This document shows positions 10,746 through 50,857 of a stretch of DNA of 64,000 nucleotides, in pieces. Position numbers and translations under genes: made by a program. This DNA is from Clostridioides sp. ES-S-0010-02 (GTDB taxonomy: Bacteria; Bacillota; Clostridia; Peptostreptococcales; Peptostreptococcaceae): assembly GCA_020641055.1 (NCBI GenBank), contig CP067345.1:2287317-2351316 (forward strand), given 5' to 3'. The notes below the pieces were generated by a model. The model was given only the letters and a program-made list of their open reading frames with translations, did not search any database and was not told the origin of the DNA. Position 1 is the first letter of the stretch; each line of letters starts with the position of its first letter.

Positions 10746-11900
10746 TTAACCTAAAAAAGCATAAACTATAATTCCTACGATTATAGCTGGTATAGTAGTA
10801 ATAATCATAGCCCATAAGGAAGATTTTTTATCCATTGCTAAAAGCGGAAAAAGTGCATCTCCATCTTGAGATATTGAATTAGCTATTACTGCACCAAGTG
10901 GTATAGTTCCTTTCAAGTAAAATGACATAAGTACAATTTGTATACCGCACCCTGGAATAAGTCCAAGACCTGCACCTATAAATACACTAATTACACCTGT
11001 TGATAAAACTAAATTAACTAAGTATTCATCTCCACCTAAAACCAATATTATCAAATCGTAAATAAGATATGCAATAAAAATCCATGTAATAACAAATGAA
11101 ATTTCACCTACAGAATGTATAAGCATTTCTCTTAGGGAAATTTTCTTATTTTCTTCCTCTTTTTGATTAGAATTTTTAAATACCTTTTTAAAACACCACA
11201 TATAAACTATTGAGAATAGTATTCCTATAACTGCTATTGCTTCTTCTAGTGAATGTAATTTTTCAATAATAGGAAGATTTATTCCAGAATGAGCAAGAGA
11301 CATAAATATAAAACCTATTAATACAATTCCTATATAAATTTTGTACCCTTTACCATGTGTTATTATAAATGCAAGTCTATTTGTATTTCCATGAGATTTA
11401 GCTAAATTATCCAAAATTATATCATCATGATTATGCGATTCTTCATTATCTTTATGGTAATTTTTATCTGTATTATGTTTTTCTGATTTTCCATATTTAT
11501 TTAATTTCAATTTTTCTTCTAACTTAAAATAATCTACTAGTTGTCCTGTTATTACTCCTGTAATTGTACTAACTATAGTCACAAAAAAATACATTTTAAT
11601 ATTTGATGAAATAAGTATAAATGCAGCATCTCCCATACTTGCTATTAAGCTTGCAATGATTGCTCCAAAGCTTAGTTTTCCACTTATATATAATGGCATT
11701 ATTGCCAAACTCCCACCACAACCTGGTATAGCTCCTATCAAAGCTCCTATTAAAGGTTGATATTTTCTATTTTTTGATATAATATTAGTAAAATTACCAC
11801 TAGTTTTATAGTTTATATATCCAAATAGCAAAATAAAAAATCCAATCATAGAACCCACATGTAAAAATGCTTCTTCAGAAGCAGATATTAACATTTCCAT
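10746..11900 (-). CDS. Putative 10-TM heavy-metal exporter (ArsP_2/DUF2899-like permease)
   Basis: A 384-residue membrane protein with two related halves. Each half carries an IPGCG motif (AIPGCGGSLAIMPLY about 56-70; LIPGCGIQIVLMSFY about 312-326) followed by GAIIAS.. / GAVIAN.. and a GDA motif (MGDAAF, DGDALF). A cytoplasmic or external loop (about 135-165) is rich in histidine and acid, including ESHNHDD, as expected for metal binding. This is the layout of the putative heavy-metal or manganese exporters. The substrate is not known; the Fur-box-like site upstream (11956-11974) argues for iron or another divalent metal. Confidence 0.75.
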   Translation of the reverse strand: MEMLISASEEAFLHVGSMIGFFILLFGYINYKTSGNFTNIISKNRKYQPLIGALIGAIPGCGGSLAIMPLYISGKLSFGAIIASLIASMGDAAFILISSNIKMYFFVTIVSTITGVITGQLVDYFKLEEKLKLNKYGKSEKHNTDKNYHKDNEESHNHDDIILDNLAKSHGNTNRLAFIITHGKGYKIYIGIVLIGFIFMSLAHSGINLPIIEKLHSLEEAIAVIGILFSIVYMWCFKKVFKNSNQKEEENKKISLREMLIHSVGEISFVITWIFIAYLIYDLIILVLGGDEYLVNLVLSTGVISVFIGAGLGLIPGCGIQIVLMSFYLKGTIPLGAVIANSISQDGDALFPLLAMDKKSSLWAMIITTIPAIIVGIIVYAFLG

Positions 11901-11955
11901 TAATTTACCTCCTATATTAATTTCGCAATAATTATATTATATTTCATTTATTATT

Positions 11956-11974
11956 GATAATCAATATCATTATA
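11956..11974. promoter_or_regulatory. Fur-box-like operator
   Basis: GATAATCAATATCATTATA matches the classic 19-bp Fur consensus GATAATGATAATCATTATC at 15 of 19 positions by my count. It lies 56 bp upstream of the exporter start codon, in promoter position. Confidence 0.65.
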
Positions 11975-11996
11975 TCTTTTAAATTTCTAATATTAA

Positions 11997-12046
11997 AAAG
12001 TGCATATCTTATATTGTTAATTTCTTGCATATTAAGATACACACTT
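11997..12046. terminator. Imperfect hairpin between ispH and the exporter gene
   Basis: AAAGTGCATATCTTATAT faces ATATTAAGATACACACTTT with a few mismatches. On the minus strand the 3' arm is followed by TTTTTAATATT, so it may terminate transcripts leaving ispH about 125 bp upstream. Confidence 0.5.
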
Positions 12047-12071
12047 TCTGATATTAGGTTATCTAGTTGCC

Positions 12072-12107
12072 ATATGTAATTTTATATTATAATATAAAAT
12101 TACATAT
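12072..12107. repeat. 36-bp perfect AT palindrome
   Basis: The sequence from ATATGTAATTTTATATTA to its exact complement forms a 36-bp palindrome with no loop, about 65 bp after the ispH stop. It could cruciform or act as a symmetric terminator or protein site. No function can be assigned. Confidence 0.6.
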
Positions 12108-12170
12108 AGATATTACAACAAATTTTATATATTATACCGATATTACACATTTTTTCATCGTTTACTATAT

Positions 12171-13010
12171 TTATAAATTTTCAATAAATGTTATTACTTC
12201 CTCTATTATCCAATCTGGTGTAGATGCTCCTGCTGTCACTCCTAAAGTTTTATACTTCTTAAGCATATTTACATCCAATTCGTCTTTAGTTTCTATTGCA
12301 AAAGTTGGAACTAAATCTTCACAAACTTTTACTAACTTTTGAGTATTAGAGCTGTGTTTTCCACCTATAACTATCATACAATCAACTTCTCCTGCTAATG
12401 CTTTAGCTGCTTCTTGTCTAGTTTTTGTGGCTGAACAGATTGTATCATTAAATACTATATTTTCTAGTTTATCAGCTAATTTATTAACTATATTTGAATA
12501 TAAATCTGGATTTATTGTTGTCTGTGCAACAACACAATATTGTTTTGAATTATCAAATTCCATATTCTCCATTTGCTCTACAGCTTTTATTATTATTGCT
12601 GAGTTTTCGCACCATCCATTTATACCTATCACTTCTGGATGTTTCATATCTCCAATAACTATTATTTCATAACCCTTATTATGATACTCACTCACTACTG
12701 TATGTATTTTCTTTACAAATGGACATGTAGTATCTACAATTTTAAGTTTTTTATTTTTAGCTTCTTTGTATACTTTCTCAGGAACTCCATGAGATCTTAT
12801 TATCATATTTTCATAATCTGGTATTATATCGATTTCATCTACAGTTTTAAGACCTTTTTGTTCATATCTTGCTACTGCTTGCTTGTTATGAATAAGAGGT
12901 CCTAAAGCATATATTCCAGAATCATTTTTCTCTACTTCATCCCATGCCATTTTCATTGCTCTCTTTACTCCAAAGCAAAATCCTGCATTTTTTGCTATTT
13001 TAACATTCAC
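12171..13010 (-). CDS. ispH: 4-hydroxy-3-methylbut-2-enyl diphosphate reductase IspH (LytB)
   Basis: A 279-residue protein that makes IPP and DMAPP in the last step of the MEP isoprenoid pathway. Iron-sulfur ligands are visible at C12 (AGFCFGVKRA), TTCPFVKK and ICSATKTRQ. Other family motifs are RSHGVPE, GDMKHPEV and GGKHSSNT. In many clostridia IspH is fused to ribosomal protein S1 domains; here it ends at the normal IspH length with no S1 extension. It is the last gene of a five-gene operon, 13 bp after plsC, with a very strong G-rich RBS. Confidence 0.95.
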   Translation of the reverse strand: MNVKIAKNAGFCFGVKRAMKMAWDEVEKNDSGIYALGPLIHNKQAVARYEQKGLKTVDEIDIIPDYENMIIRSHGVPEKVYKEAKNKKLKIVDTTCPFVKKIHTVVSEYHNKGYEIIVIGDMKHPEVIGINGWCENSAIIIKAVEQMENMEFDNSKQYCVVAQTTINPDLYSNIVNKLADKLENIVFNDTICSATKTRQEAAKALAGEVDCMIVIGGKHSSNTQKLVKVCEDLVPTFAIETKDELDVNMLKKYKTLGVTAGASTPDWIIEEVITFIENL

Positions 13011-37581: not shown

Positions 37582-38199
37582 TTATATCACCTCCTGTTTA
37601 GGATATAATGTTACCCTTTCCGCACTTTTATTGTTTCCACTAGCAAATATCATTTCTCCAAAACATGTTATATCTTTAGGAGTATAAGGGTAGATTGTAA
37701 CTGTTTCTCCTGTACTAGCCATTGCTCCTGTATAAAGTCCATTTTGATTATATAAAATCATTTCAAATTTATGTTCTAAATGTGCTGGTTTTATTTCTTC
37801 TATTTTCTTATCTAATTCTAAAATAGTGTTATAACTGCAATTATTTGTTATAAAACTAAGTGTAAAACTAAATAGATTACTGAACACTTCTACATCAACA
37901 TTAGTCTTTGTATAAGCCTCTCCTATCGCTTTTATAACTTCTATTGTAGTTGTACCCTTGCCTCTCATCTTTGCTTTTATATTGCTTCTTCTATCTTCTA
38001 TACTTAAATCGAATCTATTTTTAATAGATAAAATATTTTCCCAGTAATCAAGTCCCCACGTTGCTGTATCCACAAAGCATTGGTCAAAAGTATCGTCGTA
38101 TGTTTCCCTAAGCATCTCTAGTTCTATGTCATAAGCATCTTGTATCTTTCTAGTAACATTATTGCTATAAAAAGAAGGTAGCTTATCAATTAATTTCAA
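37582..38199 (-). CDS. Tail protein XkdU-like (DUF2313, tail protein I)
   Basis: A 205-residue protein with a TTG start after GAGGTGG. LPSFYSNNVTRKIQDAYDIE and LDYWENILSIKNRFDLSIED with RRSNIKAKMRGKGTTTIEV match the YmfQ/XkdU baseplate wedge family. It ends exactly where the fibre gene begins. It assembles next to baseplate protein J. Confidence 0.85.
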   Translation of the reverse strand: MKLIDKLPSFYSNNVTRKIQDAYDIELEMLRETYDDTFDQCFVDTATWGLDYWENILSIKNRFDLSIEDRRSNIKAKMRGKGTTTIEVIKAIGEAYTKTNVDVEVFSNLFSFTLSFITNNCSYNTILELDKKIEEIKPAHLEHKFEMILYNQNGLYTGAMASTGETVTIYPYTPKDITCFGEMIFASGNNKSAERVTLYPKQEVI

Positions 38200-39249
38200 T
38201 TAAACCACCTCACTAAACTCAAGCGTCGTAACACTTGGGACTTTGTCTTCTTCAAAACTTATATTTTCAGCTCTATTATTTAAAAGTAAGTTACTAAAGT
38301 CATGTAGACCTTCTACACTTGCAAGTATTGCACTTACTTTAGTGTAAATTATTTCTTTATTAACATTTATTAAATAGTCATTAATACTTTCTAAGAAACT
38401 CTCTTTTACAAAATCTAGTGTATACCCTGCTTCTAGCTTTATAGTTGCACTTATGCTTATATTAAGTGATGAAGGTGTTGTGACTGTTAGTGTACATCCT
38501 ATTGGCATTTCTGCTTCGATATGTTCTCTACATTTAGTTATTATTTCTTCTTCAACAGCTTGATTATTTTGACCAAATAATAAAACCTTAACTGTCCCTG
38601 CTCCATCCCATCTTGGATATACTTTTGCATTATATACACCATCAACCTCTAAAGCCCATTCCTCATAGTGTGCTTTATTTCCACTTGTAGCTTGGTTTTT
38701 CTGTATTTTATAGAATCTTTCTTTTAATTCTTCGTCTGTTTCTATTTCTGTCCCACCTTGGAATGCTAAATTATTATAAATTTTAGTTATACCATTTATT
38801 TCGTCTTGTAGCTTAAATTCTGTGTTTGCAGGTATATTATATCTAATTCCGATTTCTAAAGCCTGTATAGGGCTTGTATTTTGTTCGATTTCCGAACCGA
38901 TTTCTATATCTTTGATTACTACGAATAATAGCTCATTGTAAGATATAGTAGTTCCGTTTTGGACTACTGTTCCAGCTTTTCCCTCGAATGTCACTTCCCC
39001 TGTAGCTTCTGTTCCTAGTTTTCTATACACTCCAAATTCATTTACTCGTTTATCTAAAAAATCATCGAAGTTATCTTCTATAAAAGCTTTCTTATGAAGA
39101 TATGAAAGTTCTATATAGAATTTTGCTAATTCACTATTAACAGGAGATACCATATCACTTAAAAAAGAACCCTCGCCTTTATAGATATTTAAATCTATAT
39201 TAGATAAGGTCCTATTTTTCACAACATCATATGTTTGGCTACTATACAT
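38200..39249 (-). CDS. Baseplate J-like protein (XkdT-like)
   Basis: I start at the ATG at 39249 (MYSSQTYDVVKNRTLSNIDL) because GGGAGG lies 9 nt upstream; a longer frame begins at 39267. The 349-residue protein contains GSFLSDMVSPVNSELAKFY and EDNFDDFLDKRVNEFGVYRK near the N terminus, then GTEIETDEELKERFYKIQKN and YPRWDGAGTVKVLLFGQNN. This is the order of baseplate J/gp47-type wedge proteins of contractile tails. Confidence 0.9.
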   Translation of the reverse strand: MYSSQTYDVVKNRTLSNIDLNIYKGEGSFLSDMVSPVNSELAKFYIELSYLHKKAFIEDNFDDFLDKRVNEFGVYRKLGTEATGEVTFEGKAGTVVQNGTTISYNELLFVVIKDIEIGSEIEQNTSPIQALEIGIRYNIPANTEFKLQDEINGITKIYNNLAFQGGTEIETDEELKERFYKIQKNQATSGNKAHYEEWALEVDGVYNAKVYPRWDGAGTVKVLLFGQNNQAVEEEIITKCREHIEAEMPIGCTLTVTTPSSLNISISATIKLEAGYTLDFVKESFLESINDYLINVNKEIIYTKVSAILASVEGLHDFSNLLLNNRAENISFEEDKVPSVTTLEFSEVV

Positions 39250-39996: not shown

Positions 39997-40013
39997 TGTT
40001 TCACCATCCTTTT

Positions 40014-41783
40014 TTATAAAAATCTTTTAGCTGTTACATAATTTTTAGTGTAATAACTACCACTTAACTTACTTATTTTTACTACATCACCACTATGTGG
40101 CGAATGAATAAATTCTCCATTTCCAATAAACATGCCAACATGGTCTATTGCTCCATTTGCTCCTTTGCTAGAAAAGAAAACTAAATCTCCTGGTTGTAAA
40201 CTTCCTTTACTTACTGCTTTACCTGCTTTTCCTTGGTCTTTTGATACTCTAGGAATACTTATGCCTATCTTTTTATAGCACCACTGAGTAAACCCACTAC
40301 AATCAAAAGTATTCTCCCCAGTTGCCCCCCAAACATACTTACAACCTAATTTACTTTTTGCTATACTAATTAATTCTTTTGCCTTTCCTGTAGCATTTGT
40401 ATATCCTGTTCCATCTCCAATTATTATGCTTCCTTTTCTTCTTCCAAACTTGTTACATTCTTCTTTGCTAGACATTAGTATGTCTATCTTATATACTCCA
40501 TTTACAACTTTTATAACTCCACCTCTATCTGTAACTGTATATGTCTTGTTATCTATATTTGTACCTGGACACTTTGCTTGTATTTGTGTTTTAAATTTAA
40601 GTGCTTCGGGTGCGGCACAAGTATTATTGGATGGCACAAGTTTCTTTCCATCCATTTTTTGATATAGTCCACCTTCCATAGGGTCATTTGATGGATAGTA
40701 TGCTGAAAATTCTGCTTTTACTTCTTTACCATTTAGTGTACCTTCTCCATTCAAACTAGAACTTTCTTCCTTCTGTTCGTCCTGTCCTGCTGTCTTTTCA
40801 TCCATAATGTTTTGGAAGTTCAAATCTAAGTCTATCTCATAATTTCCAGAACTGTCCCAGTTATGTTTATCTGTATCTATATAAAATAACCCAACTAAAC
40901 CAGTATAAGAATCTTTTACCTTTACGCCTCTACCAGTTATACAACTTACATCGCCATACCCTTTTAAATTGCAAGTCTGTTCTATTCCTTTAAACTCACT
41001 TTCAACATCTACAGTATTATTTTCTTGTTGTTGTATAACTTTTTGCATTATTACTCCGACATCCTTAAAAATCTCATCATTGACCTTTTCACTAATTTTA
41101 TTACCATACTGGTCTACAACTAATACCTTGTTTTTTACATTCTCCATACTTTCTGAGAAGTTTGTATTTATAAGATTCATACCTTCTTCAAACATAACAT
41201 TTAATGTAACAGTTCCTTTTTCAATGATATTAAATTTATCTACATTAGACTCTATCATATACTTTTTTTTAGTTGTCTTACTAGCTTCTGTATATGCACT
41301 CATTATAGTATCGTAGCCAGTTACACCAATAAACATCTTCGTATATTTAACACCAGTTTTAGGTATGTTTCCTATTGCAAGTTTATTGTCATTAAAAACT
41401 TGTTTTGCAATATCTTCAACTAATTTATCTTTAAAATTATATGATACCTCGCTTTGAGTAAGTAAAAATCCCATGTCTTTTGATGTAAAGCTAATACTAG
41501 TATTACTGGAGTCTTTAGACCTGTTAATTATCATTCCTCGATAGATTTCTTTATCATCTACATAAAAACAAACTGTACTAGCTATAGGTATATCTATTTG
41601 CTTAAAATTAATATCAGAAGCTGACTGTACTATAGAAAACTCTAGTGTCCTTGATGGTGACTTATAATCACCTGACCATGTAATTTTTTCTACTATATCG
41701 GTTATGTTGTATATAGCTCCATTTTTTATATGGACCTGTAATTTTATATTATTGATTAAAATCACCTCACTTACTCTACACAT
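40014..41783 (-). CDS. Tail hub protein with DPBB/3D-like and NlpC/P60 peptidase domains
   Basis: A 589-residue fusion. Residues about 1-325 are an XkdQ/gp27-type hub (NGAIYNITDIVEKITWSGDY; LEFSIVQSASDINFKQIDIP). Then comes a 3D/barrel-like domain (about 345-450, FSAYYPSNDPMEGG, TVTDRGG, IDILM). The C-terminal NlpC/P60 domain (about 465-589) has its cysteine in FDCSGFTQW, histidine in IDHVGMFIGNG, and a third polar site at FIHSPHSG. It likely cuts peptidoglycan during DNA injection. The hairpin just upstream covers its likely RBS (GGTGGTG). Confidence 0.9.
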   Translation of the reverse strand: MCRVSEVILINNIKLQVHIKNGAIYNITDIVEKITWSGDYKSPSRTLEFSIVQSASDINFKQIDIPIASTVCFYVDDKEIYRGMIINRSKDSSNTSISFTSKDMGFLLTQSEVSYNFKDKLVEDIAKQVFNDNKLAIGNIPKTGVKYTKMFIGVTGYDTIMSAYTEASKTTKKKYMIESNVDKFNIIEKGTVTLNVMFEEGMNLINTNFSESMENVKNKVLVVDQYGNKISEKVNDEIFKDVGVIMQKVIQQQENNTVDVESEFKGIEQTCNLKGYGDVSCITGRGVKVKDSYTGLVGLFYIDTDKHNWDSSGNYEIDLDLNFQNIMDEKTAGQDEQKEESSSLNGEGTLNGKEVKAEFSAYYPSNDPMEGGLYQKMDGKKLVPSNNTCAAPEALKFKTQIQAKCPGTNIDNKTYTVTDRGGVIKVVNGVYKIDILMSSKEECNKFGRRKGSIIIGDGTGYTNATGKAKELISIAKSKLGCKYVWGATGENTFDCSGFTQWCYKKIGISIPRVSKDQGKAGKAVSKGSLQPGDLVFFSSKGANGAIDHVGMFIGNGEFIHSPHSGDVVKISKLSGSYYTKNYVTAKRFL

Positions 41784-41786
41784 ATA

Positions 41787-41833
41787 AAAACACCACCAAA
41801 AATGATAAAATATATCATGAGAGGAGGTGTTTT
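41787..41833. promoter_or_regulatory. Hairpin sequestering ribosome binding sites on both strands
   Basis: AAAACACCACC pairs with GGAGGTGTTTT (one mismatch) and an inner ATGATA/TATCAT pairs as well. On the plus strand the 3' arm holds the GGAGG of the gene at 41837. On the minus strand the 3' arm GGTGGTGTTTT is the RBS of the hub gene and is followed by TTTTTATAT. It may be a terminator, a translational switch, or both. Confidence 0.6.
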
Positions 41834-41836
41834 CAT

Positions 41837-42034
41837 ATGTATCATTTTGAAAATTTAAGTAATTACTGTTCTGTTATAGATAGACAAGTTTCTACTGATT
41901 CTAAATATTTTGAAACTCACACAAGCAATGATAAAAAACTAATTGATTTTAGTTGTTCACATTCAAATACTTGTAATTTATCAGATGAAAATAAATGTGA
42001 GTTACTTCAAAAAGCCCACAACAAATATAGATAA
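41837..42034 (+). CDS. Cysteine-containing small protein, antisense to the tail operon
   Basis: A 65-residue product starting MYHFENLSNYCSVIDRQVST with CSHSNTCNLSDENKCELL near the C terminus. GGAGG lies 9 nt before the ATG. It is the only plus-strand gene inside the 30-kb minus-strand late operon, and its stop abuts the stop of the gene at 42035. The cysteine spacing loosely recalls the two small cysteine proteins to its right. Real coding is likely; function unknown. Confidence 0.5.
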   Translation: MYHFENLSNYCSVIDRQVSTDSKYFETHTSNDKKLIDFSCSHSNTCNLSDENKCELLQKAHNKYR

Positions 42035-42277
42035 TTACTTTACTTTAAAATTTTTAAATGGAGATAATTTTAAATCAGTCAATTTACTTAACTTTAAAAA
42101 AGTATCCCAAAAATCTGATTCTCTATTATCTCCAAAACATTTATCTAAGTGTTTACACTCTGTACAAGGGAAAACTAAGTCTTTTTCGTTGTGCATGAAG
42201 CTTTTTATAGCTCCAATTTGTATAAACTTACCTATACAATACAAGTCTTTTTCTGAAAGTTTTATTTCTTCTTGCAT
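42035..42277 (-). CDS. Small cysteine-cluster protein, paralog 2
   Basis: An 80-residue protein: LSEKDLYCIGKFIQIGAIKS, then FPCTECKHLDKCFG, then FWDTFLKLSKLTDLKLSP. It is a clear paralog of the adjacent gene (42299-42571), sharing the EKDLYCI start, CxxC..C cluster and WDTF.KLSK ending. The cysteines could bind a metal. RBS AGAGG is present. Confidence 0.7.
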   Translation of the reverse strand: MQEEIKLSEKDLYCIGKFIQIGAIKSFMHNEKDLVFPCTECKHLDKCFGDNRESDFWDTFLKLSKLTDLKLSPFKNFKVK

Positions 42278-42298
42278 AATAACACCTCTTTCACATTT

Positions 42299-42571
42299 TT
42301 AATCTGTAAAACCTGCACCTGGACACATTCTTACTCCTGTAATTTTTGATAATTTTATGAATGTGTCCCAGTGTGCATAACCATATCCACTTTTAAAACA
42401 TTCTCTTTCATACTTACAAGTTTGGCAAGGGTCTAATATATCATGTTCTTCTCTAAAACATCTCTTTATAACGTTTATTTGAATATGTTTTGCTATACAA
42501 TATAAATCTTTTTCTGTCAAATCATCTTTTGTTAAACCATTACTTTGTGGTATTATTCTTACTTTCTCCAA
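42299..42571 (-). CDS. Small cysteine-cluster protein, paralog 1
   Basis: I start at the TTG at 42571 (GAGG 8 nt upstream), although an in-frame TTG at 42607 overlaps the LysM gene. The roughly 90-residue protein contains LTEKDLYCIAKHIQINVIKR, DPCQTCKYERECF and WDTFIKLSKITGVRMCPG. It pairs in tandem with its paralog at 42035. Four or five cysteines per protein suggest a zinc or Fe-S site. Family not recognised. Confidence 0.65.
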   Translation of the reverse strand: MEKVRIIPQSNGLTKDDLTEKDLYCIAKHIQINVIKRCFREEHDILDPCQTCKYERECFKSGYGYAHWDTFIKLSKITGVRMCPGAGFTD

Positions 42572-42585
42572 CTCTATCACCTCAT

Positions 42586-43227
42586 CTAAGGAATTATTAA
42601 CACCCAACCATCTTTTATAACGTCAGGATTTTTAATTAATTTTTTATTTGCATCATAAATCTTCTTCCACAAATCTCCATTTCCATAATATTTTTTTGCA
42701 AGTGACCAAAGACTGTCGCCTTTACCTACTTTATGAGTCTTTTGTTTATTTTTAACCTCAAATCCTTTCGTCAAAGGTAAATCAAGTTTTGAAGATAACT
42801 TATCATTTGAACTCGTATTGATTTTAGGTATCTGTATTCTTTTATACTCTTTTAAATTTAAAGTGAAATATACATCTCCTGTGCAGTCTTTTTCTTCATA
42901 TTTAAAACTGTCTATTATTACTTCCATATTTATATTTGTTTCTGTAACTGTAAACCTTAATATAAAGCCTTCATTCATCCATTTTTCAATTTTATTTACA
43001 CAGTCATAAGGCGAGGGAAAACCTGTATAATCACAAAAAGTATAGTCATTTTTGGGAAAGAAACTAGATATTTCTGTAGTTCTTAAGCCTACACCTCCAA
43101 ATACTGCAATTTCTCCTGTTTTCAAGATATTTGAGGTATTTACTATTGCTTTACTGTTTATCTCAAAAGAGCTTGGGAAAACAGGAAATCTAAAGGTGTC
43201 ATTTGCTTGTCTAATCCACATTTCCAA
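42586..43227 (-). CDS. LysM-domain tail protein (XkdP-like)
   Basis: A 213-residue protein with a TTG start behind AGGAGG. Residues 1-130 match the XkdP/gp53-like N-terminal part (FPVFPSSFEINSKAIVNTSN; VFGGVGLRTTEISSFFPKND). The C-terminal LysM (about 163-213) reads KTHKVGKGDSLWSLAKKYYG and WKKIYDANKKLIKNPDVI. It sits between tape measure and hub and joins tube to baseplate. Confidence 0.9.
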   Translation of the reverse strand: MEMWIRQANDTFRFPVFPSSFEINSKAIVNTSNILKTGEIAVFGGVGLRTTEISSFFPKNDYTFCDYTGFPSPYDCVNKIEKWMNEGFILRFTVTETNINMEVIIDSFKYEEKDCTGDVYFTLNLKEYKRIQIPKINTSSNDKLSSKLDLPLTKGFEVKNKQKTHKVGKGDSLWSLAKKYYGNGDLWKKIYDANKKLIKNPDVIKDGWVLIIP

Positions 43228-43312
43228 CTACATCACCTCCTTTCTAAAATATCTTTAAAGCTATACCACAGCTTTCTTAACATATATTCACTTCTTTTGA
43301 TTTTTCGTATTA

Positions 43313-43340
43313 AAAAACACCTACCCAAGTAAGTGTTTTT
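43313..43340 (-). terminator. Terminator after the 49-residue ORF
   Basis: AAAAACACCTAC pairs with GTAAGTGTTTTT (one mismatch, 4-nt loop); on the minus strand it is followed by TTAATACG. It sits inside the late operon and marks the accessory island's edge. Confidence 0.7.
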
Positions 43341-43359
43341 AATTTATAGAATTAATTTC

Positions 43360-43509
43360 TTATTTATACTTTGATTGTTTACAGTATTTATCTACTATTT
43401 GTTTGAAAACATAAAAGTCATGTTCATCTTTTTGTCTTAAAGTTTTTAGGTAAGAAATAAGATATTCCTTTTCCTCATTACATACATTATTTAGCAAGTT
43501 ATCTCCCAT
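43360..43509 (-). CDS. Small protein coupled to the antirepressor frame
   Basis: A 49-residue product starting MGDNLLNNVCNEEKEYLISY and ending DKYCKQSKYK. AAGGAGG lies 9 nt upstream. Its ATG overlaps the TAA that ends the antirepressor's extended frame (TAATG), a typical translational coupling. No family recognised. Confidence 0.65.
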   Translation of the reverse strand: MGDNLLNNVCNEEKEYLISYLKTLRQKDEHDFYVFKQIVDKYCKQSKYK

Positions 43510-43658
43510 TACATTACCTCCTTGTATACAACATGGAAATTCTTCTTCTCACCTGCAATTTTAATAGGTCTATTATTTTCATCTATCCATTTGCTAATCT
43601 TGTTTATTACACTTTCTGTATACTTATTTACAGTACCAGTCCAAGAACCATTTGTTTC
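43509..43658 (-). pseudogene. In-frame C-terminal extension of the antirepressor beyond an amber codon
   Basis: After the TAG at 43659-43661 the same frame continues without a stop for 49 codons (ETNGSWTGTVNKYTESVINK ... NFHVVYKEVM) to a TAA overlapping the next start. It has no start codon of its own. The antirepressor was probably about 281 residues long and has lost its tail to a nonsense mutation, unless the amber codon is read through. Confidence 0.6.
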
Positions 43659-44354
43659 CTAAACTCCCTTAACTTCGTTTTCTTCTAATTTTATCTTTTT
43701 AATAATTTCACAAATAGCAAGTTGTGCTGGTTTATTACTCTTAGAATATATTTTCAGCTTAGATGCTATTTGCTTTGTATCAAAATAATGTTCTTCTTCA
43801 TCTATCTCGATTGGTAAATCAATTCCCGCTTTTTTGTACAATGTCTTTGCTGTTAGTAACTTAGATTTATTGTCAAAGCCTGCATTGTCTAGCAACTCTT
43901 TTAACATAGATGTACTGTTATAAGCTAATTGTAACTTTTCAATCTCACTTGCTTTTTCTCTTAGTTTTTCAGGATTAGCATTATCAGTTATGTATGCACC
44001 AGTCTTAAATATAGATTCTACTACATCCCAAACCCAATCCATAAAAGTATCAGCCTTTGGCTGTCTACTAAAACGACATATTTCCATTACTCCTTTTGTA
44101 TTATAAACTATAGTATCTCTTAATACTTCTCTATTCCCTTCAACTGTAACCAACTTGACTACAGTTGAAAATTTATCAAGTCTATCTTTGTTACGTTCAT
44201 GTATTTTACTTATAGCTATCCTTGGTTCTGTATACTCTAAAGCCATTCCTATTTGTTCTCTAGTCATTAATATATCTTTAGTATCATTTTCATAAAAATT
44301 ACATTCTACTTCTCCAAAGTTTTCTGATTTGATTAATTCTAAATTAGTTTTCAT
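43659..44354 (-). CDS. BRO-N antirepressor
   Basis: A 231-residue protein. The BRO N-terminal domain (about 15-115) includes ILMTREQIGMALEYTEPRIA, RNKDRLDKFSTVVKL, LRDTIVYNTKGVMEICRFSR and ADTFMDWVWDVVESIF, then a coiled linker and a C-terminal part with KTLYKKAGIDLPIEIDEEEH and YFDTKQIASKLKIYSKSNKP. Antirepressors of this type bind phage repressors or DNA. A strong RBS (GAGGAGG) is present. It lies next to a ribbon-helix-helix repressor gene inside the tail operon. Confidence 0.85.
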   Translation of the reverse strand: MKTNLELIKSENFGEVECNFYENDTKDILMTREQIGMALEYTEPRIAISKIHERNKDRLDKFSTVVKLVTVEGNREVLRDTIVYNTKGVMEICRFSRQPKADTFMDWVWDVVESIFKTGAYITDNANPEKLREKASEIEKLQLAYNSTSMLKELLDNAGFDNKSKLLTAKTLYKKAGIDLPIEIDEEEHYFDTKQIASKLKIYSKSNKPAQLAICEIIKKIKLEENEVKGV

Positions 44355-44473
44355 ATAAATTCCTCCTCAAATTGATTTGAAAGAAGTACCCTTATATGAT
44401 AGAATATTTCATATAGAAGGCAACTTCTTGTACAAGTAGTCCATTTTGCTTTGGTCGGCGGTTGGGCTACTTT

Positions 44474-44641
44474 TTATTTGTCTTTTAGTAGTTTTATACC
44501 TCTTCTAACTCCTTCGGCTTTATCTATATTTTCTTTTTCACAATATTTTTCTAGAATATTTTTAGATTCTTCATCCAATCTTATAGTTATTCTACTACCT
44601 TTGGGATTATCTGTAGGTCTACCTATTTTTTTACTTGGCAT
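44474..44641 (-). CDS. Ribbon-helix-helix repressor (CopG-like)
   Basis: A 55-residue protein starting MPSKKIGRPTDNPKGSRITI. The beta strand SRITIRLDE and following helices (ESKNILEKYCEKENIDKAEG, VRRGIKLLKDK) match small RHH repressors. RBS GTGAGGTG is present. It has its own strong promoter with a dyad around the -10 box (44659-44702), so autorepression is likely. It is probably the partner of the antirepressor downstream. Confidence 0.82.
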   Translation of the reverse strand: MPSKKIGRPTDNPKGSRITIRLDEESKNILEKYCEKENIDKAEGVRRGIKLLKDK

Positions 44642-44658
44642 ATCTTCACCTCACTTTC

Positions 44659-44702
44659 GTCTGCCTTAATTATATTATATAGTTTCGGCAGACAAAAGTC
44701 AA
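44659..44702 (-). promoter_or_regulatory. RHH gene promoter with operator dyad
   Basis: On the minus strand TTGACT (44702-44697) and TATAAT (44679-44674) are separated by exactly 17 bp. GTCTGCC (44659-44665) and GGCAGAC (44687-44693) form an inverted repeat embracing the -10 box, the expected site for repression by the RHH protein. Confidence 0.82.
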
Positions 44703-44758
44703 TTAAATATCCAATTTTTTCTAATTATTTTACCCAACCGACCAATTTGAGCAAAACA

Positions 44759-44787
44759 AAAGCACTTACCACAAAAGTAAGTGCTTT
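44759..44787 (-). terminator. Terminator directly downstream of the CRISPR array
   Basis: AAAGCACTTAC pairs perfectly with GTAAGTGCTTT (11 bp) and on the minus strand is followed by TGTTTTG. It lies 14 bp beyond the last repeat. Confidence 0.85.
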
Positions 44788-44800
44788 CTTTGTTTATTTA

Positions 44801-44959
44801 GTTTTGAATCCACATAGTTAATATAAAACGATTAATGCAGTTATAGCAATTATAGCGATACCAATATTTACATACCACTTAGTTAATATAAATTTGTAAC
44901 ACAAGTTTGGAGCGCTACTTTAGCTACGTTATTTACATACCACATTGTTAATATAATTC
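44801..44959 (-). CRISPR. CRISPR mini-array: three repeats, two 36-nt spacers (type I-B repeat)
   Basis: Repeats of 29 nt lie at 44931-44959, 44866-44894 and 44801-44829. Read on the minus strand they match the known C. difficile repeat beginning GTTTTATATTAACTATGTGG and ending TATGTAAAT, with 2-3 changes in the first two. The leftmost keeps only its first 20 bases, as expected for the leader-distal repeat. The spacers, 44895-44930 and 44830-44865, are both 36 nt. No cas genes are in the window, so the host's enzymes would be needed. Spacer 44830-44865 translates to IGIAIIAITALI, like part of the tape measure protein. Confidence 0.9.
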
Positions 44960-44968
44960 TGTACCTAT

Positions 44969-44974
44969 ATTATA
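44969..44974 (-). promoter_or_regulatory. Candidate -10 box for the CRISPR array
   Basis: TATAAT on the minus strand lies 9 bp before the first repeat, which puts a start site almost at the repeat. The -35 is poor (GTGCTT at 17 bp). There is no long AT-rich leader of the usual kind. Confidence 0.45.
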
Positions 44975-44983
44975 TCATTTTTT

Positions 44984-45032
44984 AACATATAAAGCACTTG
45001 AAACAATGTAATATCCAAGTGCTTTATATGTT
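44984..45032. terminator. 17-bp perfect hairpin between the SHOCT gene and the CRISPR array
   Basis: AACATATAAAGCACTTG and its exact complement enclose a 15-nt loop, 22 bp after the stop of the gene at 45055. The better T-tract is on the plus strand (TTTTATTTG). It separates the array from the gene upstream. Confidence 0.7.
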
Positions 45033-45054
45033 TTATTTGATTATTATTCTAATA

Positions 45055-45807
45055 TTATAAGTTCAATAATTCTTTTTTCTTAGTATTAAATTCTTCTTCT
45101 GTTATTGCTCCCATATCTAATAACTCTTTTAATGTTTTTATTTTCTCTAGTGGGTCAATAGCATTATTTTTATCAGCTATATTATTGTTAGCATCTTCAA
45201 CTTTATTGTTTTTTCTATATTCAACTAATTTTTTATAAATAATTGCACATACATTGTCATTTTTCTTAAAAGATAATATAAAATCTTTACATTCTACTAT
45301 TAAGTATTCCTTTTTATCTATTGTCTTTTTTTTCATAGCAAGAGCGAATGGTCCAAACAAAGCTATTCTAGTTGCTGTATACCTTCTAATAACTTCCTCT
45401 TCTTTTTCAATAGAAACACTTTTTATTTCTGAATATGAAATTTCAAAGACATCAATCATTTTATCATTTAAATTTTTTCCAGTCTTTTTAAATAATATTT
45501 TATTATCTTTAACTACAACAAATAAAAGCCCTTCTTCATTTAAAAGCGGGTGCCCTCCTATATATTCTAACATTACCATTTCGCTCTTGCTGAAGTTTCC
45601 TTCTTCATCTTTACTATTTTCCATACATTCTAAAATATCATTTTTAGTTAGTTTCTTTATTGGCTTTCCTGATGAAACTATCTCAACTCTGCATTTCTCA
45701 AGACAATTTTTACACAAGTATCCATCTGAAACTTTTAAATCATTTGTATCAGTTCCACAAATTATACATGGTTCTTTTGTTTTCTCTTTTCTACTGAATA
45801 ATCCCAT
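45055..45807 (-). CDS. Zinc-ribbon (DUF4428-like) and SHOCT domain protein
   Basis: A 250-residue protein. The N-terminal metal site is PCIICGTDTNDLK..GYLCKNC (about residues 13-40). A PH-like central region covers about 90-190 (KMIDVFEISYSEIKSVSIEK). The C-terminal SHOCT motif is EKIKTLKELLDMGAITEEEF. Similar proteins occur in phages and bacterial chromosomes and may tie to membranes or nucleic acids. It lies between the tape measure and the CRISPR array and is not part of the standard tail set, so it is an accessory gene. Confidence 0.75.
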   Translation of the reverse strand: MGLFSRKEKTKEPCIICGTDTNDLKVSDGYLCKNCLEKCRVEIVSSGKPIKKLTKNDILECMENSKDEEGNFSKSEMVMLEYIGGHPLLNEEGLLFVVVKDNKILFKKTGKNLNDKMIDVFEISYSEIKSVSIEKEEEVIRRYTATRIALFGPFALAMKKKTIDKKEYLIVECKDFILSFKKNDNVCAIIYKKLVEYRKNNKVEDANNNIADKNNAIDPLEKIKTLKELLDMGAITEEEFNTKKKELLNL

Positions 45808-45879
45808 ATTTATCCCCCTAAAATATAATAATTATACTACGATTATAGCATATACTGGTATCTTTTAGGAGAAATATGT

Positions 45880-48663
45880 CTATACACCACCAGCTATTCC
45901 TAATTTTATTTCTCTTACTAACATCTTAGTTAATTTAGTCATATCAGCTTCTTCTTTAACTGTAACACCACCTAAGTTTATATTTATAGTAATATTATTA
46001 TCTTCTTTATTATTTGTAGTCTCGCTATTAGTTTTATTAACAGTATTTTGTTCAGTTCTTTGAGTTATAGCCTCTTTGTATTTACTTGTATAGTTACTCT
46101 CTTCAACTTCTTTAGGATTATACATTCTACTAACTAAACTGTTAACCATCCCAGTAATATTAGTCTCTAATTTTGGCAATGTCATTTTTATTCCATTCCA
46201 AATACCAGGAGGAAGAAATTTACCTACCAAATCCCTTAATTTCCAAGATGGAGAATGCACTCCAAAACCATCTTTAAATCCGCTTATTACACCATTTGCA
46301 AAATCTCCAATCTTACCTTTTAGCCAATCTCCAGCTCCTGTAATACCTTCCCAAAGCCCTTTAACAATATTTTTACCTATATCCATCACTTTTTTAGGTA
46401 AAGACTTCAATGTGTCCACTACTGTAGTAATTAATTTTTTAGCACCTTCTTTACCTTTAGTTGCCATTTGACTTCCCCAAGTAGCAACTTTTTGAATTGT
46501 ATTTGTAAGCCAAGTCCAAACTCTGCTAGGTAAGGTTTGAAAAAACACCACTATATTATTAATAATCATCCTAGCATAAATTTGAGCATATGCTATCATA
46601 ACCATACCCCACTGACCTATTTTTTGAACTGTATTCACTAACCAAGTCCAAATTTTATTAGGAAGTTGAGCAAAGAATGTTCCTATATTATTAATCCATA
46701 TAGGAACATTTGTAACTAAGTAAGTCCAAACAGAAATACCCCAAGAAATTATTTTGCCTAATGCAAATCCTAATCCATAGCCAATTTTTGCAGGTAATTG
46801 TCCAAACCACACTCCAATATTATTTATCCATGTTGGAATAGTTTGAGTAAAGAAAGCTACAATAGCATTCCAACCATTTACAAAAGTCTGTTTTATATTG
46901 TTCCACATCTGTACAAACCAAGTTCCTGCATTTGAAAAACTTGTACATAGACTTTCCCAAGCTTGTGGAATAGTTTGTGTAAAGAAATTACATATACTTC
47001 CCCAAACTTTTGTTGCTGTTTCTTTTATATTGTTCCAAGCATTTATAACAAAATCTCTAAAGCCCTTGTTTGTATTCCACAAGACTACAAGTCCTGCTAC
47101 GAGAGCGGTTACTGCAATTACAGCAATTCCTATAGGACCACCTAAAAGAGCACTTGCTTTTGCTAATAGCATTGTCCTAGCTTGAGCTATAGTCATTTCT
47201 GTAGTTAATACTCCAACCAAAATTTGAAAACTACTCAAAACCGTACCTGCCTCTGCCATGCCAACCATATAGGTTCTTACAGCCAACTTTGCCACAATCC
47301 AAGAGTTTTTCAGAGCTACAATGCTTTTAACTGCACTAGTCATAATAGAAGCTGTTTTTATACTTACAAAAATACTTGCGATTACAGGTCCATTCTTTAA
47401 AATCCAACTTAAAGAATCAATTAAAAGTGGTAATGCTTTAGTTGCAAGTTTTACAGCACTTGATAATCCATTTCCTATCTCATTTGCAAAACTATTTATC
47501 GACTTAACTCCATCATTTTTCAACCAATTGGCAAAGTCATTTAGAGCAGGTAACATCCGCTGACCAAGGGGTATCAACACATCTGCATTTATAATTCTGC
47601 CAATACCTTGTAACCCTTGTGAGAATGACGCATATTTAATTTGATTTATTTCATCCATAGTATTTTTTGTTTCATCAAACTTATCTCCTATATTGCCAAG
47701 TTGCCTACAAACGTCTGGTCCTAAATCTTCCCACATAGTCTTAAAAAGCTGAGCTCCAATAGTGCTTTGCTTCAAAGGGTCATTTACATCACCTATAGCT
47801 TTCATAGTGTCCATAAAAGCTTTCTTAGCAGATTCGCCTCCTCCTGCAAATTTCTTAGCCATATCGTCAGCGTTGAAACCTAGTTTCTTAAAAGCATCTA
47901 CAGTAGTATTAGAACCATCGATTGCGTTTACAGAAAGTTCTTTTATTGCGTCTCCAACTTTGTCAAGGTTGAATGCTCCACTATTCATGCCTGTTTCAAA
48001 AATATTGAACATGTCTGTAGCAGTAAACCCAAATTTTTTAAATTGAACCGAATATTCATTAATATTATCGAGTAATTCGCCCGAATAATCTAATCCTCGT
48101 TGCTGCCCTTGTGCCATTAAATTAAATGCTTCGTCACCACTTATACCAAAATTTTGTATCAGTGCATCTGCTGACCTAATACTTTCAGATACCTCGTATC
48201 CGAATGTATCTCTGAATCCAATTGCTTTTTCAGTTAAACCTTGTATATTTCCAGTTGCTCCTGCTAGGCTTTTGTCCACTATAGACATAGCATTTGCTAT
48301 ATCTGCAAAATCCTCGCCAAAATTATTTTTATATACTCCAAGCATTGCATCTTTTAAATGTTCCATACCTTGTGCTGTATTTCCTGTTGACGCTTGTATT
48401 TGATTCAAAGCTTTTTGATAATCATCATTAGCTTTTATTGCCATCCCACCAATACTTAGCACTCCTGCACCTAATCCAGCACATGCTTTCGTTGCTATTT
48501 CTCCAACTTTCTTTAACTGTTCTTGTAATCTTTCTTGTGCTTCTGATGTTGAATCAGTTTGATTTTGAAGGGCTCTAGTAGCATCTCTAACTTGTTGTAG
48601 GGTTCTACTAGCTTCATCTCGCATTCTTATAACAGCTTCCAAAGCTCTGCTTCCTGCTGACAT
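45880..48663 (-). CDS. Tail tape measure protein
   Basis: A 927-residue protein. An N-terminal coiled coil (MRDEASRTLQQVRDATRALQ) is followed by the TP901-type domain with GVLSIGGMAIKANDDYQKAL, QGQQRGLDYSGELLDNINEY and AFNLDKVGDAIKELSV. Hydrophobic segments follow, including GGPIGIAVIAVTALVAGLVV (about 505-524), and then repeated tryptophan-rich blocks (WNNIKQTFVNGWNAIVAFF, VPIWINNIGTFFAQLP). At about 1.5 angstrom per residue it predicts a tail near 140 nm. Segment 47098-47133 is the counterpart of a CRISPR spacer in this prophage. Confidence 0.93.
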   Translation of the reverse strand: MSAGSRALEAVIRMRDEASRTLQQVRDATRALQNQTDSTSEAQERLQEQLKKVGEIATKACAGLGAGVLSIGGMAIKANDDYQKALNQIQASTGNTAQGMEHLKDAMLGVYKNNFGEDFADIANAMSIVDKSLAGATGNIQGLTEKAIGFRDTFGYEVSESIRSADALIQNFGISGDEAFNLMAQGQQRGLDYSGELLDNINEYSVQFKKFGFTATDMFNIFETGMNSGAFNLDKVGDAIKELSVNAIDGSNTTVDAFKKLGFNADDMAKKFAGGGESAKKAFMDTMKAIGDVNDPLKQSTIGAQLFKTMWEDLGPDVCRQLGNIGDKFDETKNTMDEINQIKYASFSQGLQGIGRIINADVLIPLGQRMLPALNDFANWLKNDGVKSINSFANEIGNGLSSAVKLATKALPLLIDSLSWILKNGPVIASIFVSIKTASIMTSAVKSIVALKNSWIVAKLAVRTYMVGMAEAGTVLSSFQILVGVLTTEMTIAQARTMLLAKASALLGGPIGIAVIAVTALVAGLVVLWNTNKGFRDFVINAWNNIKETATKVWGSICNFFTQTIPQAWESLCTSFSNAGTWFVQMWNNIKQTFVNGWNAIVAFFTQTIPTWINNIGVWFGQLPAKIGYGLGFALGKIISWGISVWTYLVTNVPIWINNIGTFFAQLPNKIWTWLVNTVQKIGQWGMVMIAYAQIYARMIINNIVVFFQTLPSRVWTWLTNTIQKVATWGSQMATKGKEGAKKLITTVVDTLKSLPKKVMDIGKNIVKGLWEGITGAGDWLKGKIGDFANGVISGFKDGFGVHSPSWKLRDLVGKFLPPGIWNGIKMTLPKLETNITGMVNSLVSRMYNPKEVEESNYTSKYKEAITQRTEQNTVNKTNSETTNNKEDNNITININLGGVTVKEEADMTKLTKMLVREIKLGIAGGV

Positions 48664-48666
48664 ACT

Positions 48667-48849
48667 CTAAAGCCCCCCTCCAAAATTCTTTATTTCTTCT
48701 ATTTTTTCATCCATTTCTTGATACATAAATGCTTTAGTTATACGTTTCTCTCCATGTTTAATCTTATAAAAAACAGATGGCATCATTCCTTTGTATTTAA
48801 ACATTAAATACATTAAATTAACTTCACCATCTGTTTTTATTAGTTTTTT
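48667..48849 (-). CDS. Frameshift extension of the tail assembly chaperone
   Basis: At the end of the upstream gene the slippery heptamer A AAA AAC (48849-48843) immediately precedes the zero-frame stop TAA. A -1 shift continues as LIKTDGEVNLMYLMFKYKGM through GEKRITKAFMYQEMDEKIEE to a stop at 48667. This adds 58 residues, giving a 214-residue product. No start codon with an RBS exists for the downstream frame. This is the G/GT arrangement of tail chaperones, directly before the tape measure gene as expected. Confidence 0.85.
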   Translation of the reverse strand, partial: KKLIKTDGEVNLMYLMFKYKGMMPSVFYKIKHGEKRITKAFMYQEMDEKIEEIKNFGGGL

Positions 48850-49310
48850 ATTTTTTCTTCTATTCTCTTATCTTTTTCAGAATTAGATTCGCTATATCCA
48901 TTCAGCTCACATATTTTGTTATATAAATCATTTATTTCACCTGCTAATAACATTTTTCTTAGCAATTCCCTTGGTGTTGGAGATTTAAAATGTTTTAATA
49001 GTTCTTTATCTTTAAATGTTTTGCAAGAAGCTAATATAATATTTGTTTTCATTTTAAAATTATCTAAATCCTTTAATGAACCATTCTCTATTTTCAGTCC
49101 ACTTGACTGTAATTCGTCAAAAGTTTCGGGTTCTAATGCTGTGCACTCAAAAGGTAACTCTATACCTACTTTTTTGCAAAATATTTTGTATGTCATGCTT
49201 GGCATTTTAATTTCACCTGCATCCATTTTGAGTAATAATTCTACTATATTTTTTACTTCTGTTACTTCTTTTTTATCTACTATTTCTTTTTCTAATCTAT
49301 TTTCGCTCAT
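48840..49310 (-). CDS. Tail assembly chaperone (XkdN-like)
   Basis: A 156-residue protein with KMDAGEIKMPSMTYKIFCKK, LKDLDNFKMKTNIILASCKT and LKHFKSPTPRELLRKMLLAG, the XkdN family pattern. It lies between the tail tube and the tape measure genes. Chaperones of this kind coat the tape measure during tail assembly. Its last codons form the -1 frameshift site that makes the longer form. Confidence 0.88.
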   Translation of the reverse strand: MSENRLEKEIVDKKEVTEVKNIVELLLKMDAGEIKMPSMTYKIFCKKVGIELPFECTALEPETFDELQSSGLKIENGSLKDLDNFKMKTNIILASCKTFKDKELLKHFKSPTPRELLRKMLLAGEINDLYNKICELNGYSESNSEKDKRIEEKIKN

Positions 49311-49340
49311 ACTAATTCTCCTTTTTATTGTTAATTATTT

Positions 49341-49772
49341 TTATGCTGCATCTAATATCTCAAAATCTTCAAAAGTGAAAGATGCTTCAATCTCTCCTTC
49401 TTTTCCATTTTCCCAATCTATAATTGATAATCCATCAAAAGAAACTCCAGTTAAAGAGATTCTTTCCACCCCTTTAGCATCAGGGTCAGCTAGTTTACTT
49501 ATAATAGTAAATTTAGGCTCTCTACCTTCTTTTATAATTTGAGTTATATACTTTAACATATTTGAATCTACATGATATAGAGTTATAGAACCTTCCGCAC
49601 TAGCACCTATCACTTTTTGACCTTTAATCATTTTTCTAGGTCTGACTATTTCAGCTTTATCTAGTTTTATTTCAGCTTTTAATGCTTTGCACTCTGCTAT
49701 TTGTACCTCATTTAACCAACACTCTCCAAATGTTCCATTTATTACGTTTTTACTTTCAAAACTTGTAGCCAT
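49341..49772 (-). CDS. Tail tube protein (XkdM-like)
   Basis: A 143-residue protein with NGTFGECWLNEVQIAECKAL, VRPRKMIKGQKVIGASAEGS and EGEIEASFTFEDFEIL, matching the XkdM/phage tail tube family. It forms the inner tube of the contractile tail. It follows the sheath gene by 14 bp. Confidence 0.92.
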   Translation of the reverse strand: MATSFESKNVINGTFGECWLNEVQIAECKALKAEIKLDKAEIVRPRKMIKGQKVIGASAEGSITLYHVDSNMLKYITQIIKEGREPKFTIISKLADPDAKGVERISLTGVSFDGLSIIDWENGKEGEIEASFTFEDFEILDAA

Positions 49773-49786
49773 GTTATCACCTCTTT

Positions 49787-50857
49787 CTACATTTGAACTC
49801 TTATATCTATATCTTCCATCGCATCAACTAATTTTAGATTTATTAGGTAAAATCCATTTGAACCAGTATTAGCTTCTTTTATTTCATTCTCTTTCATTTT
49901 ACTAACATCTACTTTTTTACTTTCTAAGTATTCTTTTTGCTTTTCTAAGTCAATTTCGACTGTAAAATTAGAGTCAATCAATTCTTGTCTTGTTAATTCA
50001 GTTAAATATGACTGTACAGCTACTATGAATAAACATTTATTGTCATAAGTGTTAGGGCATTTACGTAAATACTTCTCTACATAAATATTCTTTATATCTT
50101 TACTTATTAAATCTTTTGTATCGACAAGCTTAATCTTTTGAAATATTTCTCCTTTTTCTGCTGTTAAAGTTGTAAGAGAATTTACTCCCCTAGCAATTCT
50201 AATCTTACCTGATAATCTTCTTAAAATTAATTCTCCCGATTGTACTTTAGCGTCTGCACTAGCTTTGTCTATCTTTGTAATAGATTCAACTTCATCAAGA
50301 GGAGCATAAGTAACAGATTGTGTGCCAGGTGTAGAGGCTATAAGAGAAGCAATACGTGGCGTGTATTTTTCTGCTGTTATTTCTTCACCATCAACTACTA
50401 CATTTTCAGTAAAATTAATAATTGCTTCATTATCAGCTTTGATATTTGCAAGAACCGCTTTAGCCTCTGTGCTTTCTTCCTCTCTTATTTTCTTAATCCA
50501 TTTTGCAATTGTTTGTTTTTCTGATTCTATAGCTTCTGGCATACATAAGTAATTAAATTCTACAGATTCTAATTCTTCTAGTATATCCTCAACTTTTCCA
50601 TCTTCTGTGAAAGTGCTTATAATAACTTTACTTGGTTTTAGTATCTTCTCATTGTCAGTAGAACCCATAAAAGCATATTTTATATATTTTTTATTAGAAT
50701 CACTTAACGATGTTGATATATCATCTTCGCTTGTAAGCTCTTTATACATCTTTGTTGTATCTTTCAATACAATTACTACTATTCCAGCTCGGGAACGTTG
50801 TATAAAGCTTGTAGCCAACTCTTTAAACTCTATATTTATGTTAACTAATCCAGCCAT
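49787..50857 (-). CDS. Tail sheath protein (XkdK-like)
   Basis: A 356-residue protein. VNINIEFKELATSFIQRSRA at the N terminus, YTPRIASLIASTPGTQSVTY in the middle and RGVNSLTTLTAEKGEIFQKI with VEKYLRKCPNTYDNKCLFIV near the C terminus are typical of the XkdK sheath family. Its presence shows that the phage has a contractile (myovirus) tail. Confidence 0.93.
   Translation of the reverse strand: MAGLVNINIEFKELATSFIQRSRAGIVVIVLKDTTKMYKELTSEDDISTSLSDSNKKYIKYAFMGSTDNEKILKPSKVIISTFTEDGKVEDILEELESVEFNYLCMPEAIESEKQTIAKWIKKIREEESTEAKAVLANIKADNEAIINFTENVVVDGEEITAEKYTPRIASLIASTPGTQSVTYAPLDEVESITKIDKASADAKVQSGELILRRLSGKIRIARGVNSLTTLTAEKGEIFQKIKLVDTKDLISKDIKNIYVEKYLRKCPNTYDNKCLFIVAVQSYLTELTRQELIDSNFTVEIDLEKQKEYLESKKVDVSKMKENEIKEANTGSNGFYLINLKLVDAMEDIDIRVQM

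Follow-up and report, generated by a model that had tools for sequence, protein, structure and literature searches.

The window considered here is the whole stretch of 64,000 nucleotides analyzed from Clostridioides sp. ES-S-0010-02. It carries a prophage of the myovirus type, as judged from PHROG and Pfam matches to tail sheath, tube, portal and terminase genes. Among the tail genes of this prophage, on the minus strand at 44801-44959, lies a mini-CRISPR array of three repeats and two spacers of 36 nt. The array is situated 0.9 kb downstream of the gene for the tape-measure protein (TMP), with a SHOCT-domain gene in between. It adjoins the very gene that its spacers match, an adjacency which was absent from a preliminary description of this DNA. 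The features of the locus are as follows.

44758..44788, minus strand: intrinsic terminator-like hairpin directly after the array; 13 pairs (shuffle mean 0.0); the scan gives both strands
44801..44829, minus strand: repeat 3, terminal; 23/29 identical to the C. difficile repeat, 3′ end degenerate
44830..44865, minus strand: spacer S2, 36 nt, the spacer of the preliminary description
44866..44894, minus strand: repeat 2; 27/29 identical to the C. difficile repeat
44895..44930, minus strand: spacer S1, 36 nt
44931..44959, minus strand: repeat 1; 25/29 identical to the C. difficile repeat, 5′ end degenerate, 3′ ATGTAAAT intact
44960..44977, minus strand: promoter-like element of the extended -10 type, TGATATAAT, directly adjoining repeat 1; recognized by eye and absent from the promoter-scan hits
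45055..45807, minus strand: gene lying between the array and the TMP gene; SHOCT domain, plus a weak match to DUF4428 that stays under the curated cut-off
45880..48663, minus strand: TMP gene, 927 amino acids, class I allele; PHROG and Pfam matches
47098..47133, minus strand: counterpart of the S2 target in the resident TMP; 24/36, with mismatches at seed positions 3 and 6
47144..47179, minus strand: counterpart of the S1 target in the resident TMP, located by its offset from the S2 site; not recognizable
47454..48505, minus strand: class-specific N-terminal TMP block without blastn similarity to class II; borders approximate, from alignment breaks

All three repeats are identical at 23-27 of 29 positions to the 29-nt type I-B repeat of C. 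difficile, GTTTTATATTAACTAAGTGGTATGTAAAT, and the spacer size of approximately 36 nt fits this type. The intact 3′ end of repeat 1 would serve as the 5′ handle of the S1 crRNA. A promoter scan of the window returned a promoter count no higher than chance. Repeat 1 has no C. difficile leader upstream, whereas the second array of the sibling prophage L174 does have one. Rfam at its gathering threshold gave no match within 40000-50000. A DUF4428-type gene between TMP and array occurs in two lineages, at 45055-45807 in the window and at 38196-38963 in phiCDKH02.

The preliminary description had stated that S2, read on the minus strand, translates without stops to IGIAIIAITALI, and that the resident TMP gene agrees with it at 24 of 36 bases behind a CCT; both statements were confirmed. 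By itself the self match is weak evidence, as other places in the window score up to 23/36. With a difference of a single base, the match to the resident TMP was dropped as proof. The link between S2 and the TMP is considered real because the TMP genes of other phages match it. The best target, in the TMP of L181 from Clostridioides genome G005, agrees at 31/36 behind CCT with zero mismatches at positions 1-8. Eleven further TMP sequences (22 examined, 17 distinct) reach 29/36 with a YCN PAM, and the maximum in 1000 dinucleotide shuffles of S2 was 24. With the seed taken as positions 1-8 and position 6 left out, 13 of the 22 TMPs combine a PAM and an intact seed within 10 mismatches of S2; the resident TMP is not among them. 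The near-perfect match that had been looked for did not appear, 31/36 being the top score, and searches of the phages collection, of IMG/VR and of genome_contigs returned no perfect S2 target. A degenerate exact scan with the back-translation of S2 returned one IMG/VR contig, in which the matching gene is the TMP of a distant phage; such scans gave nothing in genome_contigs, nor in a second, stricter pass over IMG/VR.

Spacer S1 matches the TMP of the sibling prophage L165 at 34/36 behind CCT, with mismatches at positions 2 and 18, a score reached by none of 1000 shuffles. This target was found in L165 only, one of the 22 TMPs of the lineage. In the same gene the S2 site (29/36, CCA) lies 10 bp from the S1 site. 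The best place for S1 in its own TMP reaches 22/36, at another position and without a PAM. Thus, neither orthologous site in the resident gene appears targetable, the S2 site on account of its 24/36 match with seed mismatches and the S1 site as it is not recognizable. The best S1 and S2 targets are preceded by CCT or CCA, which agrees with the CCW motif named previously. It also fits the YCN PAM of C. difficile, of which CCN is described as the best form in PMC8406132.

In the isolated phage CD1801, as in several prophages from IMG/VR, an array occupies the same position, with spacers that differ between siblings. Among the TMP-adjacent arrays of this lineage, 8 of 9 distinct spacers have a PAM-flanked match in a TMP of the set, and each of the eight has a score reached by none of its 1000 shuffles. 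Control spacers from other arrays match the TMP set at 80% identity in 5 of 716 cases. Those controls that match this lineage at all (78% identity, PAM) fall in the TMP in 5 of 57 cases, the TMP representing 7% of the bases; the TMP-adjacent spacers that match the same pieces, seven of the nine, all do so (7/7). The label “chromosomal” for spacers is unreliable, as it includes L204, possibly the prophage contig IMGVR_UViG_2645728085_000001. The CD1801 spacer A1 has a TMP target with mismatches at positions 3, 5 and 6. The CD1801 spacer A2 has no TMP match in the set; its best place is an antirepressor gene (L237 1501, LIBA6276), at 31/35 behind ACA, which is not YCN. In view of the seed mismatches in the S1 target (position 2) and the A1 target (positions 3, 5 and 6), those exact siblings may escape.

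The TMPs of the lineage fall into two N-terminal classes without blastn similarity to each other in that block. Five spacers from the class I phages L164 and L174 match 16/16 class II TMPs and 0/6 class I TMPs (YCN PAM, within 10 mismatches), the L164 spacer with four seed mismatches in 3 of the 16. By the same measure, S1, S2 and the L164 and L174 spacers have no match in their own TMP. The L174 locus (11852-12462) holds a leaderless one-spacer mini-array beside a leader-bearing three-spacer array, both by one TMP, and all four spacers match sibling TMPs on one TMP strand. The CD1801-type array is found with both TMP classes, so linkage between array and allele would cover part of the TMP only. 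In L166, L167, L172, L176 and L177, a terminal repeat and terminator-like sequence stand alone approximately 0.95 kb after the TMP, and resemble solitary repeat units.

Target positions were then counted across four C. difficile phage lineages. The targets were 27 complete or near-complete phage genomes, comprising 12 phages or relatives of the present lineage and 15 added IMG/VR contigs that were selected for the arrays they contain. The dereplicated spacers number 622, of which 284 come from arrays near a TMP, that is, within 5 kb of the gene; a hit required 85% identity and a YCN PAM. Near-TMP arrays have 66 targets in the same family: 47 in the TMP, 15 within 5 kb and 4 elsewhere, placing 62/66 at the locus. 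Their 55 targets in different families are distributed as 8, 12 and 35, and those of arrays without a TMP within 5 kb as 7, 15 and 22. The base share of the targets is 8.2% for the TMP and 27.9% for the TMP with its 5-kb flanks, and even the arrays without a nearby TMP match that gene above its share (7/44). The comparison of locus with elsewhere gives a Fisher p of 7e-12 and a bootstrap by contig places the locus share at 0.88-0.99. Neither the spacers within an array nor related prophages count as independent observations. At 92% identity the same pattern is obtained (30, 7 and 4 in the same family against 3, 10 and 23 in different families).

By lineage, the ratio of TMP to other same-family hits is 5:0 in F1, 15:13 in F2, 5:2 in F3 and 21:5 in F4, the majority in F2 being slight; the TMP total is 46 or 47 depending on slightly different TMP borders. 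A TMP majority is seen in 18 of 26 contigs. When the 19 same-family hits outside the TMP were re-examined, 15 lay within 5 kb of it at a median of 822 bases, with 22% expected. A smaller first set had given 29:5 against 7:39. An early test on all prophage arrays, with lineage ignored, was weak (68/169 proximal versus 159/507 random places); its targets were mostly array-centered fragments and biased, and were replaced by the complete or near-complete genomes. The spacers of other prophage arrays often match long genes of other families, and five representatives of these are TMPs by PHROGs.

No spacer of 225 has a self match with a PAM at 85% in the covered part of its own contig. In the first set, the 29 spacers with a same-lineage TMP target likewise have no match to their own locus at 85%, several of the own TMPs being only partly covered. 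The nearest approach is an L132 spacer, with 31/37 and a PAM at its own locus, just below the 85% cut. In four sampled genome pairs, 5-10% of the PAM sites absent from self lie in the TMP. As a sibling genome contains much sequence that is absent from self, self-avoidance alone predicts 5-10% of targets in the TMP, and the observed concentration therefore requires the position of the array. The TMP stands apart in the comparison of phiC2 with phiCDKH02, with 42% identity against 64-99% for ten other structural genes; phiCD27 and phiCD418 diverge more broadly, head genes included.

The Cas systems of the present host differ from those of its relatives. DevR-type Cas7 (PF01905) has 0 matches in the host genome (G000) and is matched in 7/7 other Clostridioides genomes. 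For the families scanned, the host has one Cas1 match and one match to the Cas7 of its own operon, both outside the window. That operon (G000:C1:1994000-2013000) is a Hmari-type I-B system with Cas5h, Cas1 and Cas3 above cut-off and a weakly Csh2-like Cas7, the last of which has no match in the seven other genomes. Its array comprises approximately 30 repeats of 30 nt, GTTAAACAGTAACATGAGATGTATTTAAAT, between cas3 and cas4, and this repeat is unrelated to the C. difficile-type repeat of the prophage. Repeats of the C. difficile type occur in 8/8 Clostridioides genomes searched, with at least 29 sites in each of the seven others and only remnants in the present host outside the prophage. The Cas6 profile PF10040 matched 0/8 genomes and is hence uninformative. 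Because the host has no DevR-type Cas7, the prophage array may be idle in this strain. In view of the unrelated repeat in the host operon, membership of the virus-borne mini-arrays is claimed for the phage lineage and not for this strain. At G000:C1:1604000-1607000 there is a remnant short array with lone C. difficile-type repeats, one of them with leader-like sequence, despite the missing DevR-type Cas7.

The reading preferred here, with a probability of roughly 0.7, is that the phage mini-array borrows the type I-B Cas machinery of a host to attack sibling phages, and that it is aimed at the adjoining TMP gene. The guides match the TMP of sister viruses and not the copy beside them, which suggests a built-in distinction between self and rival. 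The array RNA would be made and then cut by host Cas6, and the crRNA loaded into Cascade. Superinfecting or co-induced siblings with another TMP allele would then be blocked. We infer the order of these events, and the activity of the array, from sequence. Under free recombination among siblings, the weapon would be safe only when the immune allele is inherited alongside; a recombinant with the array and the wrong TMP allele would attack itself. An array placed beside its polymorphic target gene would hold weapon and immunity together in a single haplotype, and the linkage of array and immune allele would be selected because siblings recombine. The earlier suggestion of an inter-phage competition tool, a spacer against a related TMP with the resident copy diverged, thus finds support at the sequence level in both spacers, the sibling arrays and the multi-lineage test.

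Comparable systems have been described in archaea. The Sulfolobales portogloboviruses SPV1 and SPV2 carry mini-arrays without cas genes that target each other (Medvedeva et al. 2019, PMC6858448). The targeted sites lie close to the arrays, for a reason that section 9 of that paper leaves open. The present arrays resemble them in being small, in their fixed intergenic place, in their differing spacers and mutual targeting, and in the changed orthologous site of the owner. They differ in that the carriers are bacterial temperate phages, the type is I-B and the array of the window is leaderless. Moreover, one polymorphic gene, the TMP, is the main target, and proximity has been counted in four lineages. 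The archaeal mini-arrays have a leader before the first repeat, absent from the array of the window. According to PMC7099407, phage mini-arrays have leaders unlike those of hosts, and for this reason a leader is not treated here as defining. Phage mini-arrays are reviewed in PMC11656645.

For C. difficile, prophage arrays have been proposed to block related competing phages (review, PMC6079278). The present arrays share with these the repeat type, the location in prophages and the proposed block of competitors. The phrase “tape measure” is absent from the main text of that review; what is added here is that the arrays target the allele of their own locus in siblings. In PMC5154133, the TMP appears as one of several spacer targets. 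The word CRISPR is absent from the main text of the CD1801 paper (PMC8809339), a study that produced lysogens of CD1801. No description of the proximity of array and TMP was found among the matches listed, in titles and abstract openings on difficile CRISPR or phage mini-arrays, a comparison that covers sources other than Hargreaves 2014 and Boudry 2015. Within this literature, and as far as searches show, it is new that the arrays adjoin the TMP locus and aim at its sibling allele.

Virus–virus mini-arrays were known, and the near-self targeting of the archaeal viruses lacked an explanation in PMC6858448. The same proximity is now seen in four bacterial phage lineages, and the numbers separate it from self-avoidance and from a general preference for the TMP. 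They suggest a simple rule, by which weapon and immunity are kept in one haplotype, and offer a possible reason for the polymorphism of the TMP among close relatives. Isolated phages such as CD1801 make the system accessible to experiment, and it bears on which C. difficile phages can co-occupy a host. A wider and rather doubtful generalization would be an allele-linked, RNA-guided system of incompatibility or homing. In this scheme, arrays beside the TMP would cut other alleles and exclude or convert rivals, the TMP would act as a tag of self and non-self, CRISPR pressure would drive TMP diversity, and the same rule would account for the proximity in archaeal viruses.

Homing endonucleases, such as the products of the T4 seg genes, spread in a comparable manner by cutting the allelic locus. 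Like the marker exclusion caused by these enzymes, the present arrays are phage elements that would cut the allelic locus of a relative and favor their own haplotype; unlike them, they would be RNA-guided and use borrowed Cas proteins. Homing is therefore a candidate: a cut sibling locus would be repaired from the haplotype with the array, so that proximity spreads the array. Such localized marker exclusion would agree with the sibling targets at the array's own locus and with the phages L170 and L175. These belong to class II and class I, respectively, with different TMP N-termini, and share a tract of over 4 kb, 98-100% identical, that runs from the TMP's C-terminal half through the array. 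By position, this tract includes the segment with the A1 target. Erf-like annealing proteins are also annotated in phiC2 and phiCD27. However, type I Cas3 degrades its target, no conversion event with donor array and cut recipient was observed, and the linkage argument accounts for the same data. CRISPR-driven homing is considered unlikely, and the linkage of weapon and immunity is preferred.

The next alternative, quite unlikely, is that the array is a relic, acquired from a host or from a different phage and now an inert passenger, with the TMP matches recording an old encounter. The degenerate repeats, the lack of a leader, the host without DevR-type Cas7, the five siblings that retain the terminal repeat alone and the imperfect matches of S1 and S2 would all be in keeping with decay. 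On the other hand, a promoter-like element and a terminator-like hairpin are present, and the spacers at this site differ from sibling to sibling. The targeting of the own locus, together with the lack of self hits, suggests selection.

An acquisition bias alone, by which primed adaptation from an imperfect first spacer clusters later spacers with no selection for linkage, is less probable again. It would be consistent with the S1 and S2 targets only 10 bp apart and with the four L174 spacers on one TMP strand, in a prophage with a leader-bearing array. It leaves unexplained, however, both the own-locus cluster in several lineages and the spread of different-family targets.

CRISPR repeats in phages, there without cas genes, are also a property of solitary repeat units and the Racr RNAs (PMC10651486). 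The array of the window differs from these in its two spacers with PAM-flanked targets, and was for this reason not classed as a solitary repeat unit, which consists of a single repeat and no spacer. A Racr-like decoy, an RNA anti-CRISPR whose repeats titrate host Cas6 or Cascade irrespective of spacer sequence, would suit the degenerate repeats and the lone terminal repeats of siblings. It is nonetheless highly improbable, as PAM-flanked matches to sibling TMPs far beyond chance would be needless for a decoy.

CreA is a regulatory RNA with partial complementarity to its own target. Self-regulation of this kind, with a crRNA pairing partially with the phage's own TMP gene, would accord with the 24/36 match and CCT at the resident S2 site but is scarcely credible, given the seed mismatches at positions 3 and 6, on which a CreA-like RNA was rejected, and the spacers of the window, L164 and L174 that are without YCN-flanked own-TMP matches within 10 mismatches. 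Other genes and promoters of the phage itself were judged by the best-identity places in the window.

The array of L164 (11738-11858) differs in one respect from that of the window, as it keeps an apparent first part of the leader fused to repeat 1. This arrangement suggests that the leader was lost by deletion.
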